64,000 nucleotides of DNA from Phorcus lineatus (lineage: Eukaryota > Mollusca > Gastropoda > Trochida > Trochidae), in NCBI GenBank assembly GCA_921293015.1, contig OV121081.1, forward strand, positions 68,093,022 to 68,157,021. Direction: 5' to 3'. Made by a program: the position numbers and the translations under genes. Positions 11,063-40,926 of the stretch are shown here, in pieces; the first letter of the stretch is position 1; each line of letters starts with the position of its first letter. Below the pieces are notes generated by a model. That model had not been told where the DNA came from and searched no databases. It was given only the letters and a program-made list of their open reading frames with translations.

Positions 11063-11880
11063 TCACAACGTAGATTTGTTAGTACCCTACCACTGACCGT
11101 ATGATACAGTAAGCTTTAAAGAGCCACTCCGTGAGTTGTTGTAGCCATATATGCCAAACTTAATCAGTGATGTCATTAGATCGCGAAGTATCGACTGTTA
11201 CCAAAAAGACACATTTTAAAGCTTACTGGGTTTTTTTTACAGTGACGATATGAAGGTAGAACGTCGCAATTATGATCGAAAACCGGACAGCGGCGCGCGT
11301 CAAATAGTCTAACGTAATTTTGGAGACTTATCTAAAACAGCCAGGATGGCAGTTCGGAGTCGATAGCGTTTGTTAGGTTATATAACTAGTATCCATGTAT
11401 ATTGGACGTGATAACTACATCTTTGTGCATTTATAAGATTGTTTTTAGATTTTCATGGAAAACCAGTATTTGTCATATATATGTCTTGTGGACATGAAAA
11501 GTTAAGATGTTTTGATTTTACATCACCACATATGACATTTAGGTTCATATCTATGGAAGGGGATGTGTGCCAAAAATGAAATCATGTAAACTCGTAATTC
11601 GCAAGTTGTAACATGTTGTTCTCAACCATGCACTTCTCGAAAAGACAAGTCCAAGTCTGCAAACCTAACATTTCATTCCTGTAAAACTCAACTTTCTGTT
11701 CTCAACTTTACAAAGTTTAAATGTAATTTTAGAAATGTTAAAGTCGAAACTCATTTTTGTATTTCAAATACGAGGGATATACACATTTAGCAATGCTACA
11801 AATTACGTTTTACAATTGGTGAATGAAAAATGAAGAGTTGTAAAATCACCCTTTGGAAGCAGACTTTTGCATCTGGAGTT

Positions 11881-12102
11881 TTACATGAGTTGCATGGTTA
11901 TGATTGCAATGTTCCGAAATACATCTGTACACGATTTCGCATTGACCATATTTGGAAGTTTAACGAAGTCTGCCGATGATTTCCGAAGATGATCGGTATT
12001 TGACAACAACGAGACCTCCCTGATCCAAGCTCCATGCAACGCTGTGCAAGCTTTCCGGATAGTGTTGAGTTGAGTCCACCTCAATGCGCGGAGCTTGGGC
12101 AT
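11881..12102 (-). CDS. Open frame in the left arm (73 aa), function unknown
   Basis: The frame reads MPKLRALRWTQLNTIRKACT, then through NTDHLRKSSADF to IAIITMQLM and a stop. A near-identical frame sits in the right arm, in mirror orientation. It has no motif I recognise. It may be a captured host exon or the remains of an element-encoded protein. Its persistence in both arms could also follow simply from arm homogenisation. Confidence 0.3.
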   Translation of the reverse strand: MPKLRALRWTQLNTIRKACTALHGAWIREVSLLSNTDHLRKSSADFVKLPNMVNAKSCTDVFRNIAIITMQLM

Positions 12103-12736
12103 GCCGTCACCTTTTGTAAAAGTTCTCAGTAACTCGCGTACGGTGTTTTTGGACCCTCAAGGCAAATAGCAACAATTGTAATAGAACAAATATCATTTGC
12201 AATTAATTCTTATCTGACCATTATCCCAAAAAAATTTCGTGAATACGTCATTCTCTAAAATATACCCGTGTTTATTGTAAGAAAATTTCCGAACTCTTTT
12301 CGAGCCCCTCAGATGTTGTGACGTAGTCAACGCATATTAACTTTTCGAGGGCCGATTTCAATAGTTCAAAATACTTAATCAATTTCGTAGCATAACAAAT
12401 TTTTACAAAACTGAAAAGTATCATTTTTTCAAAGTACATGTTTATTGTTTAGTAATTGGTATAACAATGGAATATGAGCGTTTCCGACGCATTTGGAAAA
12501 GCATGATTACTTTGTAGACAATCTTTCAACACCATACTTTTGTGTCGTCTTGGCAATCAATTTTAAATGATTATTATTTTATGACATCACCTAATTATGA
12601 TTTATCACTAGGAGAATAATGGTTTACATTAATTAACTGATGTGAAGTTTGATTTTATGCATGTACTCCTCAAGCCGCACTTGCGTAATAATACCTTCAG
12701 TTGATGAACACAGTTGGTAAGATTTGTAATTATACA

Positions 12737-12764
12737 CAGGCCCGTAGCACCAATTTCGAGAGTA

Positions 12765-12796
<32 letters not shown>

Positions 12797-13006
12797 CTGA
12801 AATTAGGGATTTAAATTGCTATGTTTATTTAAGAAAAACTCCCGCTTACAACGTCGTAGAGACCAAATACAGGCAGTTAATGTTCACGTCACTCACTAAG
12901 TCATTAGTGCCTTTTGTCAGATGGCGCATGAAACTTATGATATTCTATTTTTCACACAAACATTGAAATAAAGAGCAAAAAAGTTTTTTTTTACCCTACG
13001 GGCCTG
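12737..13006. mobile_element. 270-bp MITE with CAGGCCCGTAG ends and a poly-G tract
   Basis: Left end CAGGCCCGTAG and right end CTACGGGCCTG are perfect inverted repeats. A run of about 30 G lies at 12766-12797. The CAGG-type ends suggest a hAT-like non-autonomous element nested in the core of the 3.0-kb element. No convincing 8-bp target duplication is seen. Confidence 0.6.
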
Positions 13007-14019
13007 AAACACACTGGATAAAATTCAAGATATACACTACGTGAATCGATAATTAACTATCAATTACGATACAATAGTCGTGTTTTTGTTGCTGTGCCAC
13101 TTGTCTTGATGCGAGAAATCTAAGTTGTACACCCCTAAGTTATACGTATGGAAATGTATAATCTTGTATTTCAAATAATTGTTAGAATTTTAACATCTTG
13201 ATGATAACAAAGGTATTTTGATTTAAATTGTATCTGATATCTGAATTTGCAAGAGCTTTTCGACTTAAAAATGGGCAAAATAGCCTATGTATCGAACAAT
13301 GACCTAGCTGATGTTCTCTGGCGGCCTGCCAGACCAGGCAAAAATTGATAGACCGTTCGCTTATAAGAAGACCCTATAATAACTGTTGATCGGGCGGAGA
13401 GTTAAAAATAACATGTCACATGAAATGTCAGTCATTTGATTTTGACATGTTCTTCAATTAAATTTGTTCAAACTGTTAAAAAAACGTCTGGTTTAGAACG
13501 TTCATAGCTTTAAAACATGACTTTAAACGGTATTAAATAAATGTTTCTTTTAACGAAATAATATTCATTGGTTAAACGACCGAATGAAAGACTAACAAAA
13601 GAAAAAAATATTCTTTTCAATGATTTTGGAACTTTTCCCTTACTTTACGTTGCGTAGTTATTTTTCTAACTATTAATTTGAAAGAATAACATGCCCGTGT
13701 TTTAAGGGTAACGTGGGTGTACAATATAGATATATTTTTTCTACCGCTATTTGTCTTTCCGAGACAAGTATGCCGTTGTTTCATTATTCTAAATCCAGTC
13801 TCGTAATTTGGTGAGTTTTTATAAACCCAACCTAAATATCTAAAACGATATTTTTTTATAGTGAATCATCTCGATGCAGTAAGTTGTGCAGAGATTTAGT
13901 GTCCAGTAAAGTCTAACCCAGAATTAAAGTTCATAATATTCTTTCGTGAGATAAACCTCGTGTTACCCTTACGAAAACAGTAGAAACAAATTATCTAGAT
14001 CAATAATTGACTAAGAACT

Positions 14020-14262
14020 TTGACAAAAGGTGAAGGTCGCATGCCCAAGCTCCGCGCATTGTGGCGGACTCAGCTCAACACTATCCGGAAAGCTTGCACA
14101 GCGTTGCATGGAGCTTGGATCAGGGAGGTCTCGTTGTTGTCAAATACCGATCATCTTCGGAAATCATCGGCAGACTTCGTTAAACTTCCAAATATGGTCA
14201 ATGCGAAATCGTGTACAGATGTATTTCGGAACATTGCAATCATAACCATGCAACTCATGTAA
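14020..14262 (+). CDS. Open frame in the right arm (80 aa), mirror copy
   Basis: This is the counterpart of the left-arm frame: MTKGEGRMPKLRALWRTQLN and onward, ending in the same IAIITMQLM. Apart from a two-residue swap (RW/WR) and an N-terminal extension it is the same peptide. It reads outward, toward the right terminus. Function unknown. Confidence 0.3.
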   Translation: MTKGEGRMPKLRALWRTQLNTIRKACTALHGAWIREVSLLSNTDHLRKSSADFVKLPNMVNAKSCTDVFRNIAIITMQLM

Positions 14263-14882
14263 AACTCCAGATGCAAAAGTCTGTTTCCAAAGGGTGATTT
14301 TACAACTCTTCATTTTTCATTCACCAATTGTAAAACGTAATTTGTAGCATTGCTAAATGTGTATATCCCTCGTATTTGAAATACAAAAATGAATATCGAC
14401 TTAACATTTCTAGAATTACATTTGAACTTTGTAAAGTTGAGAACAGAAAGTTGAGTTTTACAGGAATGAAATGTTAGGTTTGCAGACTTGGACTTGTCTT
14501 TTCGAGAAGTGCATGGTTGAGAACAACATGTTACAACTTGCGAATTACGAGTTTACATGATTTCATTTTTGGCACACATCCCCTTCCATACATATCAAAG
14601 GTAAATAATATGTTATGAAAATCACGGAGTGGCTCTTTAACTCCCAAATGTGATTGTATAATAAGAAGTTGATTAAGTGCATAAAGATCTATTGGTTGTA
14701 ATGAAGAAGGTATATTTGGATTATTTGCCTACAATATTGAATTCTTACCCGAAAAATTCAAAATAGATTTAAAAATTAAAATTCAAGTACAATCTCTTTA
14801 GTCCTATCTATTTCAGGACCTCTTACCGTTCTGTTAACGCTTGCTTGTAATAACAATTTTTGTCTTGAGAAAAAGTTTAACC

Positions 14883-14988: not shown

Positions 14989-17900
14989 ATGTTAAGAAGA
15001 ATTTTCAACCCTCATATCACGATTGCGGTTAGCAACTGGTGTCAGACATCCGTTCCTGTCCGTTGTTATCCAAGGCGGAGTTTTCCCCTACCTCCAGAGG
15101 CCCAAGACCCTGATTTTCAAACTGTTGATGCTTATGATGAATCGGATATAACAACAGAGCTTGAGAGAATGGAAGATGAAATTCGCTTTGAAAATAAAAA
15201 AATGTAAGCACTTGAAAATGATAAACCGATACACATATTTTGAAATTAGAATTTATTAAGGGTGAAACGATTCACCGATGTTCCGATGCATCTCGATACA
15301 TCCACTACGATACGATTCACGATATAGAAATGTTAAAAATCGATTTGTCACGATTCGTTTAACCATGCATGTCATTTTCAAGATAATTACAATGAAACTA
15401 ATAAAAAAAAAATATCTGATTGTGGTTACGTGCTCTAAATCTAAAACCTTTAGTTAAAGACGTTTGGTCTCGCTCGTGGTTTTTGGACCGGTGTTGACCG
15501 AAATTAGTTGCAGTTTATCTTTGACCATGTTAAACGTTTTGAAGGGCGACAAATTTAAAGCATAAAAATGTGAATTTGAAAAAGAAGCTAATAATTAGAA
15601 AAGAATAGATCATGGATGTTATGTCGATATTCTTAAGAATGTGTGACCGAAATGAATTCACCTGATATAAAGGTATTAAATAAGGATAGTTTTTAACATA
15701 AGACGCTTTGAATTGCGAACACCGTTTGGAGTTGTCAGATATCGGCAATTCAAAACAATTGAAGATATCTTGTTTTGAGGTTGAGAAAGAAGATGTAATA
15801 CTATTTATTATTATCATAATTTATATTAAAAATTCCACAGTTGAATTTAAAAGTGAATAAAAAAAATCAAATTGCCCCTCGGCCTCATAAAAAAGTCAGT
15901 GTGCGATCTGTCGCGCACAGTTATTTTGACTCATATTTCATAAATAGAGATATAATCCCTGCAAAAAAGCTTTATTTTTCCAAGAGTATTGTTGTAATGT
16001 TAAAAAATGTTTTTACGGCCTATAATTAACTTATAAACAATCGTAAAATCATATCTCGCGGCGAGTAGTTAACGTAGTCTAACAATTAGACTCTGAAATG
16101 AAAAATGCATCAGTCAATCGAAAAATTTAAAAACTTATTATAAATGAAATGAAAAGGAGACTGAAAATCAAGCTTTAAAGTCTTTTTATAGACTTGCTCA
16201 GGCTTCTACCTTATTTCAGGGTCTGGCCTACAGACTATAGTTACCGATGCATTTCATGTCTAAAAATAGCATCAGAATGAAACACCATCTGTGATTGGCC
16301 CTCCTGTGAAGATCACGTTATCTAAGCCTATCATAATGCTTGATACAAACATCTACCAAATCGCTGTACATTTTATTTCTCGTGTTTTGATCTTCTAGCT
16401 TTCAAATTTTAATTCTTAACACATGAAGGTAGGACCGTAGGTTTCATTTGAGAATATGTTATAATAATTGGTTCCATCAATACTGTTCTCATCAATGCTA
16501 TCGTCAGTGATATTTTGTTTTGGTTCTTATTTTGTTGATCATATTTACGGGACCGAATTGATTATTGAAGAATTCATATTCAGACTCAGAAACGTGATAT
16601 CTAGGCTAACAGGACCACGTGCGATCAGCATTAATTTCTGTATAAGAGAATTATTATTCCAAAATTAATCTTGAGATGTAATCTGTTGAGTCGACTTGAA
16701 TGTTGAGGTGCAATTTTATTTATTTTAGATATTGTTTGAAGTCTTTGGGTAATATATATACAAACATATATATGTAGTATATATTAGTTTTGATTTGACA
16801 GGTTTAAAGTCTATTATCTAATTTTATACAATTATCTCTTGATAATGTTGTATATTAAATAGTGTTTTGTAAAGTGACAGAGAGTCAGAGACTAGCAGTC
16901 ATTTCGTTTGAAGTTCTTTTCTTTGGATTTAAACTTAAAACTAGAAAACAATAAAGACAATTAGACTTTTTAAATGCTCTGTTCTTTTATTGAGATCTTC
17001 AAGCCAAGTTCAAGAATAACCATCATGCATTATGTTGACTGCTGAGTGTATCGAGATACATATCGTATCGTGAGCCAAATATTGAGATACGTATCGTATC
17101 GTGACTTTCCTGTATCGTTACACCCCTAGAATTTATGGCCATTCTCAGATTTTCAGTTTTCAGGAAAGATAATCACAACGTCGGGTAATTAACTGTTTTT
17201 AGTCCTTACGGTTTTGTAACTTTGTGATACTGTTTGGCAGGTCAGTCAAGAAACTAATTTTTTTTTACAGATATTGTCACCTTATGCCGTTATGGCATAC
17301 TCTCTATAATTAGAGGTGTAAATATTCGAGAAAAGTATTGTATCCTGTAAAAGAGTATTAAAAGCAGTTCCCTAAATTCTAGATGCTCCAAACTGATAAT
17401 TATTCAAAAGAAATGTGAAGTTTACAAGAAGTTCTCCCAAAACCACAAGTTTTAAGATCTGTAAAGAGTACTACATCAAAAACAAACTTGTTCAAATTGG
17501 GAATTTGTAACAAATTAAAGTCCTTCATAACTGTCATGTTTGCTATTCATTCGTACAAGTAGTTCCCAAATATTCTGGTAATTTGGAACTGGGTGAATAG
17601 CATTTCCTAGTTTTTTCTCCATGATTATCTTAGATTCAAAATTTAATTTAGTTGTAAATTATGAATGAAATGATTTTGGATGCATCACATTCAACATTTT
17701 AGCTGATAGCATTTTTTTAGACTGTCTGATCCAGATGAGTAAGGTTTTTCTTGCTTTCTGAAGACAATATATCATGGTGAAAGGTGTCCTTTTTAATAGG
17801 TGCCCAAGTTACGGAAGCTTATTAGGGCCATGTAAAAAAATTATTTGTGTCTCTAGTAACTGGAATTTTCAACATACCAACTGGAAATAACCAGTTATTA

Positions 17901-20761
17901 TTCGGAATTTACCATTTAACGTCTGGAAATAACCAGTAAGTATCTGGAAATAACTACTTTTCATCTGGAAATAACCACTTATCATCTGGAAATAGCCACT
18001 TATCATCTGGAAATAACCAGTTACTATCTGAAAAATTCCACTTAGCATCTAGAAAATTCCACTTAGCATCTAGAAATTTCCATTTAGTAACTGGAAATTT
18101 CCAATTACTATCCGGAACTAACCACATAGTATTTGGAATATTCCACCTACACGCTTTAAATAGAGCTCATTGAGCAACATCTTGGAATGCAGAGGTAGCA
18201 CTAAGGCTTTTCAAGACATCTACTCACAAATCATATCTGACCAAGAATACATCAATCATCCCCAGCCCCTCTCCTCTAAAACAGAAGCCCTTAATATCAA
18301 ATACATCAATTCATCTAAAAACGTAATTAGTTGAGAACAAGTTAAGTGGATTTACAACTTCTTTATTGCAATAATGCGACGTTTCAGTGTAGATAAACCT
18401 ATTTCATTCATGTAACAATATCACATTTTGGGGGCAACACTAAAGAAAGAGACCATTCGTATGCAAAACAAATCCTATGCAAACTATTTTTAATCAAACT
18501 ATTTTATACACATAATGAGCTGTCATGATCTTGATTTATTCCTACTCCTGTGGGTATTGTTCCTATTACCTGCATAGTTTGTTTATTCTCAACCCTTATA
18601 CTCGGATTCTGTTTCCTTTCTGTCTCCTCACTGTTTTGCCACTACAATTTTGCAATGTTTTTTCCTTAGTGTTGGGCCCACGAATTAAATATATTCCATT
18701 ACATTTTTGGATGAATTGATATAATGGACGAAAGGTTCATTAAGAGTTTTAATTATGACTTATGTTTTGAAATTGTAACTGAGGGGCGGTGGATGATTGA
18801 TGCATTGTTGGTCAAGTAGGATTTGTGAAGTCACAGACTTCTTGAGGAGCCTCAGTGCTGCCTCTGCAGTCGACGTTATCATTGATGTTGATCAGTTGGG
18901 CTTTATTTAAAGCATGTAAGTGGAATATTCCAATAAATATGTGGTTAGTTCCGGATAGTAATCGGAAGTTTCCAGATACTAACTGGTAATTTCCATAAGC
19001 TAAGTGGAATTTTCTAGATACTAATTGGTAATTTCAATATACTAAGTGGAAATTTCTAGATACTAAATGGTAATTTCCAGATGCTAAGTTGAAATTTCTA
19101 AATACTAAATGGTAATTTCCGAATATCAACTGGTAATTACCAAACATCAACTGGTTATTTCCAGTTGTTAACTGGAAATTTCCAGTTACTGGAGATACAC
19201 ATATTTTTTTTACATGACCCTAATAAGCTTCCGTACCAAGTTGATATCTGGTTGACGTGAAGAAAATATATGTCGCATAAAAGAATAATGAAAAAGCTTT
19301 GAAATAAAATGACTAAAAAACACTAAAAATACCACAAGTAATAGTTTTCAATGACAATGTGTTCACAACAACATACACATAGTGCCAGTCCCAATACAAG
19401 TTGTGTAACCCATCAAACACCATTAACTTCAATGGCCTGTCTGCTATGGTTAAGTTTACAAATTTAAATTGCCAGCAGTGGCATATTGTCCAGTTTTTTT
19501 TTTATCACTGTACACATCTAAACTGTCACTAATTGACTAAACCAATTTGAATAAATGTGACTCCAAACTCTTTAGTCTTTAGGTCTTTGCAGTTGAAAGA
19601 AAGTTTATTTCAAACCTGCTTTACTAAACACAGGGTTTTTGAATGATCTCTTATTCTCTCTCTATATATATATATATATATATTTATCTCATTTTCAGAG
19701 AAAAGGAAAGGCAAAGGCAATGGTTGAAAAAAAAGATTCTACAGAGAAAGTACTACAAGGAACCGCAATCCCTAAATCTTCTCTCTTGGACTGCAAAGGA
19801 GCAGATACGTTATCTGCACGCAGAGTACCCAGAGGAGTGGACCGTTCAGAAGTTGGCACAGAGTTTCCCAGTATCAGAGAAGGGAATCATCAAAATCCTT
19901 AAGTCTGACATCATCGTTTATTCTCAGAAAGACATTGACAAGCACGATCAGAGGGTGAGGAAGAATTGGAAACAGATCCAACAACAACTGAATCAAGGAA
20001 ATGGTCCCTCGTCACTCCCTGATGGAAGTCCTATTGCTGAAACTGTGAAACATCTTGCTGATGCAAACAAGCTGGCATTGATGATCAACGCAGGAGGAAT
20101 GGAAGATATAAAGCTTCCTTTAAAGGAGATGAAAAGAAAACAAATTGGTCTATTTGAAGGTCTTGTGAAAGATTATGTTGAATCTAGTGAAAGAATGGAG
20201 AAAGACACTGCTGATTTGAATTCAAGGGAACTGTTGAACAGTATCTCAAACTTCCAACCATCAAAAATAAAATTATCAGATGAACATGATGTGGATGATG
20301 TTAAATATGGAACAGAGAACAAAAATGTTCATTCCCAAACACAATTTTCACGTCACCAAAGGCGCTTGATGCAAGAAGTTCCAGAAGCTTTTAGATACAA
20401 AGACTCGCAAATTGACAACATGGCGCTTCATGGAACTGGCAGGGTCGCTGATTCACCTAAGACCAGAAGGGTCCACTCTGACTCCCAATACTCAGAGCAG
20501 CTACGCCATCAGAAACTGAGAGAGCAACAGGAAATCTTGTCGAAAATCAAGTTTGACAAACCTCAGAGCAGACACGGAGAGAGGGAGAGTTCCGAGGGAT
20601 ATATGTATGATTCAGTGTCGGGATATCAGCACCCACTGGGGAAGGTGGATGAGAACTTGAACAAGATTGAGGTGCCTAAATCAGGAAATAAAGGAGACTT
20701 GTACTTGCAGGGAAAATATGTGTATGATGAAGATGGTGAATTTCTCTACAAAATTCCCTAA
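14989..20761 (+). CDS. NGRN: Neugrin, mitochondrial rRNA-associated protein, 2 exons
   Basis: Exons are 14989-15203 and 19699-20761 (1278 nt, 425 aa). The join is in phase with a GTAAGC donor and TTTTCAG acceptor. The N terminus, MLRRIFNPHITIAV, is basic and hydrophobic like a mitochondrial targeting peptide. The conserved neugrin/Rrg9 domain lies at about residues 98-142: LSWTAKEQIRYLHAEYPEEW, then VQKLAQSFPVSEKGIIKILK. A long acidic/basic tail ends in YVYDEDGEFLYKIP. In human cells neugrin belongs to a module with RPUSD4, TRUB2, RCC1L and FASTKD2 that matures 16S mt-rRNA; the same role is inferred here. The tail is longer than in the roughly 290-residue human protein. The intron is packed with transposons. 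Confidence 0.9.
15256..17127. mobile_element. 1.87-kb hAT-like non-autonomous transposon in the NGRN intron
   Basis: The left end reads AAGGGTGAAACGATTCACCG. The right end in reverse reads AGGGGTGTAACGATACAGG. An 8-bp duplication, AGAATTTA, flanks it at 15248-15255 and 17128-17135; 8 bp is characteristic of hAT elements. Repeated CGATACGAT-type words lie near both ends. No transposase domain is visible. Confidence 0.8.
17810..19235. mobile_element. 1.4-kb foldback element with tandem repeats in its arms
   Basis: Termini TACGGAAGCTTATTAGGG and its reverse complement are flanked by a 6-bp duplication CCAAGT (17804-17809, 19236-19241). Each arm of about 450 bp begins with a shared stretch. It then consists of about 12-16 degenerate copies of a 17-25 bp unit built on CTGGAAATAACCAGTTA. 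The arms continue to about 18260 and 18795. The core of about 500 bp has no recognisable coding sequence. It lies 460 bp upstream of NGRN exon 2. Confidence 0.85.
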
Positions 20762-40453: not shown

Positions 40454-40457
40454 TTAA

Positions 40458-40922
40458 AGAGCCACTCCATGATTTTCATAACATATTATTTACCTTTGAT
40501 AGGAACCTAAATGTCATATGTGGTGATATAAAATCAAAACATCTCAACTTTTCATGTCCAAAAGACATATATATGACAAATGATGTTTTTTCATGAAAAT
40601 CTAAAAACAGCCTAATAAATGCACAAAGGTGTTGATATCGCGTCCAATATACATGGATACTAGTTACATAACCTAACAAACGCTCTCAACTATCTGCCCT
40701 CCTGGCTGTTTTAGATAAATCTCCAAATTACGTTTGACTATTTGACGCGCGCCACAGTCCGTTTTTTTATCATAATGGAGACGTTCTACCTTCATATTGT
40801 CACTGTAAAAATCCAATAAGCTTTAAAATGTGTCTTTTTGGTAACAGTTGATACTTCGCGATCAAATGACACCATTGATTGAGTTTGGCATATATGACTC
40901 CAACAACTCACGGAGTGGCTCT
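40458..40922. mobile_element. Intact 465-bp TTAA MITE (AGAGCCACTCC family)
   Basis: Flanked by TTAA at 40454-40457 and 40923-40926. It starts AGAGCCACTCCATGA and ends TCACGGAGTGGCTCT. The whole length aligns, in inverted orientation, with the two halves of the copy at 11120-14636. The family is non-coding and Kolobok/T2-like by its TTAA target. Confidence 0.85.
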
Positions 40923-40926
40923 TTAA

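Follow-up and report, generated by a model that had tools for sequence, protein, structure and literature searches.

A guest element inside a TTAA MITE

The window, by which we mean the whole 64,000-nucleotide stretch of Phorcus lineatus DNA analyzed here, contains a MITE with TTAA at both ends (11116-11119 and 14637-14640) that is split by a second element into a left part at 11116-11551 and a right part at 14597-14640, both on the plus strand. This second element, here called the guest and considered below as a putative non-autonomous IS3EU-type element, occupies 11552-14590 of the plus strand (3039 bp, ends TATGGAAGGGG...CCCCTTCCATA) and is composed of a left arm, or terminal inverted repeat (TIR), of 579 bp at 11552-12130 (plus), a core at 12131-14009 (plus), where 32 consecutive G occupy 12765-12796, and a right arm of 581 bp at 14010-14590 (minus). 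In an alignment of the two arms 567 of 578 bases were identical, with 11 mismatches and 4 gap bases, and the outermost 166 bases did not differ at all. The guest is flanked on both sides by the 6-bp target duplication CATATC (11546-11551 and 14591-14596), so that its junctions read ...TTCATATC/TATGG on the left and CCATA/CATATCAAAGG on the right. These measurements agree with the original prediction, made from the sequence alone, of a guest of about 3.0 kb with exact inverted ends, arms of about 580 bp and a CATATC duplication, lodged in a MITE with TTAA at both ends. A frame with a Neugrin domain (PF06413) is also present in the window.

The host MITE including the guest spans 11116-14640, and removal of the guest together with one CATATC restores an element of 480 bp. 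As had been predicted, the restored host matches a second, uninterrupted copy on the minus strand at 40454-40926 which measures 473 bp when both TTAA are counted and 465 bp when they are not; with this copy reverse-complemented, a global alignment showed identity at 433 of 473 aligned bases and 7 gap bases. The host also resembles other TTAA MITEs in its TTAA termini and short TIR, and we take such elements to be of the piggyBac or Kolobok type. Exact 20-bp ends of the host MITE occur 5620 times in the genome, and four copies elsewhere whose ends match exactly are 466-481 bp long. Seven copies outside the window, the best-scoring of 40 matches, were 90.8-96.7% identical to the host, the match covering positions 1-480 in six of them and 7-480 in the seventh (L007). 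One of these seven, L002 (96.7%), retains the undisturbed site ...GGTTCATATCAAAGG with a single CATATC.

The longest stop-free stretch in the whole guest measures 91 codons, and the 91-codon frame inside the arms had no Pfam match. When the core was compared with transposase by tblastn only chance-level matches were obtained; the idea that the core is a decayed transposase was dropped on this ground, and the core is listed here as having no transposase similarity.

A large and young family in the genome

The exact 20-bp end of the guest was found 776 times in the genome (381 forward and 395 reverse), and the same 20 bp read backwards as a control were not found in it at all. Eighty of the first 100 listed places form 40 convergent pairs less than 6 kb apart (316-5459 bp long, median 2808), and among these 100 places no adjacent ones less than 6 kb apart had any other orientation. 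Target duplications were tallied in 45 copies for which both flanks were read, namely 35 of the 40 listed pairs and 10 others. An exact 6-bp duplication was present in 40 of the 45; the remaining five comprise one with a 5-bp duplication, two with one mismatch in 6, and L100/L101 and L043, in which there is no duplication, the right end of L043 being mutated and its flanks differing (CGTACC and ATAGTT). Mismatched combinations of left and right flanks from the first 44 copies, which served as a control, agreed over 6 bp in 0 of 1892 cases. The original prediction had named repeated 6-bp duplications and identical ends as the features that would define a family, and both were thus recovered at other copies. 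Base composition across the 40 exact duplications shows a rough symmetry with an A/T-rich middle, and the third base outside the duplication is G or C in 33 of 40 sites on one side and 30 of 40 on the other, compared with 36% G+C in the window.

Could the locus be an artefact of assembly or tandem duplication, with no insertion having taken place? We found no point in support of such a reading and regard its probability as negligible, given the 776 exact ends, the 40 convergent pairs with none otherwise oriented among the 100 listed places, target duplications that differ from site to site, and an empty host copy that keeps the target site.

Thirteen other exact-ended copies differed from the guest by 0.3-2.7%, and the guest differed from the majority of all 14 by 0.13%, figures that apply to copies picked as close matches; having been drawn from the best arm matches, these copies lean towards young ones. 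The most divergent of the 13 is L045 (C7:15402956-15406485), a family member with an inverted core segment and with intact ends and 6-bp duplication, and its divergence is probably inflated by the inversion. The left and right arms of one and the same copy differ at 9-14 positions in 13 of the 14 copies, and the left arm differs from that of the guest at 0-4 positions in 11 of 14 (the guest itself counted), at 8 in L048, at 10 in L046 and at 78 in L051, in which the arm is truncated. Since the left-right differences are common to the whole family, arm divergence is unfit as a clock and was rejected for this use.

The host MITE is older than the guest family, since even its seven best-matching outside copies are only 91-97% like it, and the far lower divergence of the guest family indicates that the guest is much younger than its host, in agreement with the nesting. 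The predicted order of arrival, host before guest, is upheld. The guest is a recent insertion into an older, smaller mobile element, and the structure is real and defined to the base. Nesting as such is ordinary in a transposon-rich genome; what this locus offers is an insertion resolved to the single base, for which the empty site is known, and access to a large and young family.

Two copies shortened by deletion, 316 and 633 bp long, retain some 60 bp of one arm together with about 271 and 575 bp, respectively, of the other; the 6-bp duplications of both are intact. At the other extreme, the 40 listed pairs include three of 4123, 4646 and 5459 bp, the longest ones, which carry about 1.5-2.8 kb of other DNA inside; none of the three has a stop-free stretch above 108 codons, and tblastn of these three against two transposases and a HECT-domain frame returned only chance-level matches. 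The longer, transposase-encoding copy with the guest's own ends that the original prediction had proposed to look for was accordingly not found among these three.

Transposase-bearing elements of the same genome

Transposase loci were searched for in the genome with PF24764 (rva_4 integrase core), a domain that, on our assumption, may mark IS3EU. There were 18 matches in this genome and 0 in 14 control genomes. Open transposase frames of 324 codons are present at three loci and one of 305 codons at a fourth; in the two frames that were scanned, one of 324 codons and the 305-codon one, rva_4 scored above and rve below the cut-off, and the NCBIfam models for IS481 (E 4e-6 and 2e-7) and IS3 (E 1e-4 and 2e-6) matched far below their cut-offs. 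A comparison of the transposase with the PDB gave only two matches (E 0.12 and 0.64), which are uninformative. The three elements with 324-codon frames, all apparently of IS3EU type, lie at C1:62585191-62592816 (L053), C16:6160234-6167906 (L054) and C29:35430076-35438841 (L056); they are 7626, 7673 and 8766 bp long, are bounded by TACGGAAGCCAAATAGGGCC, and have the duplications GGATGAT (7 bp, read by eye), CATTTG and GTATAG (6 bp). A broken transposase locus with two TGA codons, within C9:56449282-56458351, has the ends TATGGAAGCGCATTGCTGCCA and the duplication GTTACC, and sits between TATGGAAGCGCATTGCTGCC ends. At a transposase locus on C7 the outer TACGGTGG pair that was tried has non-matching flanks (GTGACA and GCCACC), and a nested 383-bp pair there has ATAAAG on both sides. 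The genome thus contains transposase elements that have 6- to 7-bp duplications and ends related to those of the guest. The guest's own end was absent from the ten transposase loci inspected (four regions of 9 kb and six upstream stretches of about 0.7 kb, out of 89 transposase matches in the genome).

To compare the ends, a 21-position profile was built from the two verified transposase-linked end types and scored at 127,960 positions, covering the two strands of the window. The two ends of the guest came joint third, and the only higher scores belonged to the ends of a second, different element, putatively also of IS3EU type, at 17810-19235 on the plus strand (1426 bp, TACGGAAGCTTATTAGGGYC ends), which is flanked by the 6-bp duplication CCAAGT (17804-17809 and 19236-19241); the arms of this element are inverted and repeat-rich. 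With the C9 end alone as profile no position scored above the guest, and with the end shared by the C16, C1 and C29 elements (the L054 type) alone 6 positions scored above it and 33 tied. A profile of four hand-picked ends and one of all seven TAYGG sites each placed 2 positions above the guest. The four ends had been picked by eye at TAYGG sites upstream of transposases, leaving one such site in L122 and two in L125 outside that profile, with none present in L121 and L124; one of the four, from L120, bounds a nested 383-bp element and not the transposase element. Since the profile ends were themselves found via TAYGG, positions 1-5 are not independent, and with the two-type profile limited to positions 6-21 the guest was outscored at 13 positions and equalled at 14, numbers that rose to 260 and 247 for positions 9-21. 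The end sequence that the guest has in common with the elements encoding an IS3/IS481-like transposase is thus less distinctive once the TAYGG positions are left out. Position by position, the end of the guest is identical to the two verified transposase-linked ends at 13/21 and 16/21 positions (the latter for the C9 type), and all five end types compared share TAYGG at positions 1-5, G at 8 and GCCA at 18-21. Beyond the terminal 21 bp or so, no clear similarity between the guest arms and the transposase elements was detected, the best match being 30 bp of a repetitive stretch (E 0.008).

Superfamily placement

IS3EU is described through sequence features in two publications (PMC10045372; PMC12730594). 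Its ends are stated to be always TA..TA and its target duplications usually 6 bp (PMC10045372), and for fungal IS3EU 6-bp duplications, TIRs above 30 bp and TAYGG..CCRTA ends are given (PMC12730594). The guest family shows these features together, with exact 6-bp duplications in 40 of 45 copies, TATGG..CCATA ends that fit both the general and the fungal description, and TIRs of 579/581 bp, which are above the fungal lower limit. The name IS3EU is that of Repbase, and PMC10045372 groups it with GingerRoot, which was described from a clubmoss and which, by its published description, likewise has a 6-bp duplication and mostly TA..TA ends. Related elements of this genome encode an IS481/IS3-like transposase. 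What sets the guest apart from IS3EU is that no coding sequence was found in it and that its TIRs measure about 580 bp. The earlier view that the guest fits no nameable superfamily has consequently to be abandoned, since IS3EU fits by its TA..TA ends, 6-bp duplication, TIR length and TAYGG..CCRTA motif. On these features membership of the guest in the IS3EU superfamily is well supported, and the guest family, which is young, long-armed and non-autonomous, would be a probably new addition to a superfamily that is known but has been little studied.

Polintons (Mavericks) have TIRs of several hundred bp and AG..CT ends, and autonomous ones carry polB, integrase and capsid genes. The guest could be seen as a deletion derivative of such an element because of its long arms (579/581 bp) and because a 6-bp duplication is stated for Polinton too (PMC10045372). 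The TATGG..CCATA ends of the guest differ from AG..CT, however, and with stop-free stretches of at most 91 codons no polymerase or capsid frame was seen in it; moreover, the terminal profile groups the guest with the IS3EU-type elements of the same genome, and we consider a Polinton remnant very improbable. Somewhat less remote, and still improbable, is that the guest belongs to a superfamily without a name, one that combines long arms with 6-bp targets and resembles IS3EU in its ends alone, by convergence. In line with this reading, neither the ten transposase loci inspected nor the three longest copies contained a transposase between the guest's ends, and past the end the arms have nothing clear in common with the transposase elements; against it stand the joint occurrence of the published end, TIR and duplication features and the identity of 13/21 and 16/21 terminal positions with the two verified transposase-linked types.

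Proposed mechanism and accessory observations

We therefore favor, with a probability of roughly 0.86, the interpretation that the guest is a non-autonomous IS3EU/GingerRoot DNA transposon that was moved in trans by the transposase of other elements in the same genome. This enzyme, predicted to be an integrase-like protein of the DDE type related to IS3/IS481, would recognize the end by its sequence (TAYGG at positions 1-5, G at position 8 and GCCA at positions 18-21), cut at the element ends and carry out two strand transfers 6 bp apart in the target, preferably at a symmetric site with an A/T center flanked by G/C, and repair of the gaps would yield the 6-bp duplication. In the present case the guest would have landed in the CATATC of the older TTAA MITE. 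The ends, the duplication, the pre-insertion site, the size of the family and the order of arrival are matters of observation; that one of the transposase lineages found here moves the guest, as well as the steps of cutting and repair, we infer from them. The arms beyond the short end may well be dispensable for movement, and the 316- and 633-bp copies agree with recognition of a short end if their deletions preceded movement.

A further-reaching version, which we consider unlikely, is that the long-armed family has no surviving autonomous sibling and is cross-mobilized by the transposase of a different IS3EU family, with which it has only some 21 terminal bases in common. In that case IS3EU would recognize this short end as its unit, the 580-bp arms would be dispensable passengers, and a single transposase would serve several otherwise unrelated non-autonomous families. 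With transposase frames of this superfamily open in the genome, it becomes possible to test which ends IS3EU requires and which targets it prefers.

The elements L053, L054 and L056 also carry, inside their ends and opposite to the transposase, a frame with a HECT domain (PF00632, ubiquitin ligase), and a literature search for HECT in IS3EU elements found nothing. In fungal IS3EU with TET genes an alpha-kinase gene is located opposite the transposase (PMC12730594), and together the two cases suggest that accessory genes at such a position may recur. Beside the IS3EU-type element L053, a 306-codon frame at L053:6936-7853 matches DDE_Tnp_1_7 (piggyBac-type); TTAA MITEs like the host may, among other origins, derive from piggyBac.

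In a genome-wide search, the N-terminal 55 or so residues of the transposase (query residues 5-62) gave dozens of short matches, most of them at 42-50% identity, that lack the catalytic core; these perhaps represent a separate family of DNA-binding genes or non-autonomous carriers. The right end of the broken C9 element occurs twice together with its flank (C9:56458351 and C9:56462730, separated by 4.4 kb), the 12 flanking bases being identical at the two places, likely as a result of local duplication. Finally, at C9:23798264-23810889 (G000) TACGGTGGCATATTAGGGCC ends on the minus strand and TACGGAAGCCTTTTAGGGCC ends on the plus strand alternate in steps of about 1.9 kb, which suggests that IS3EU-type elements make up a tandem array there.
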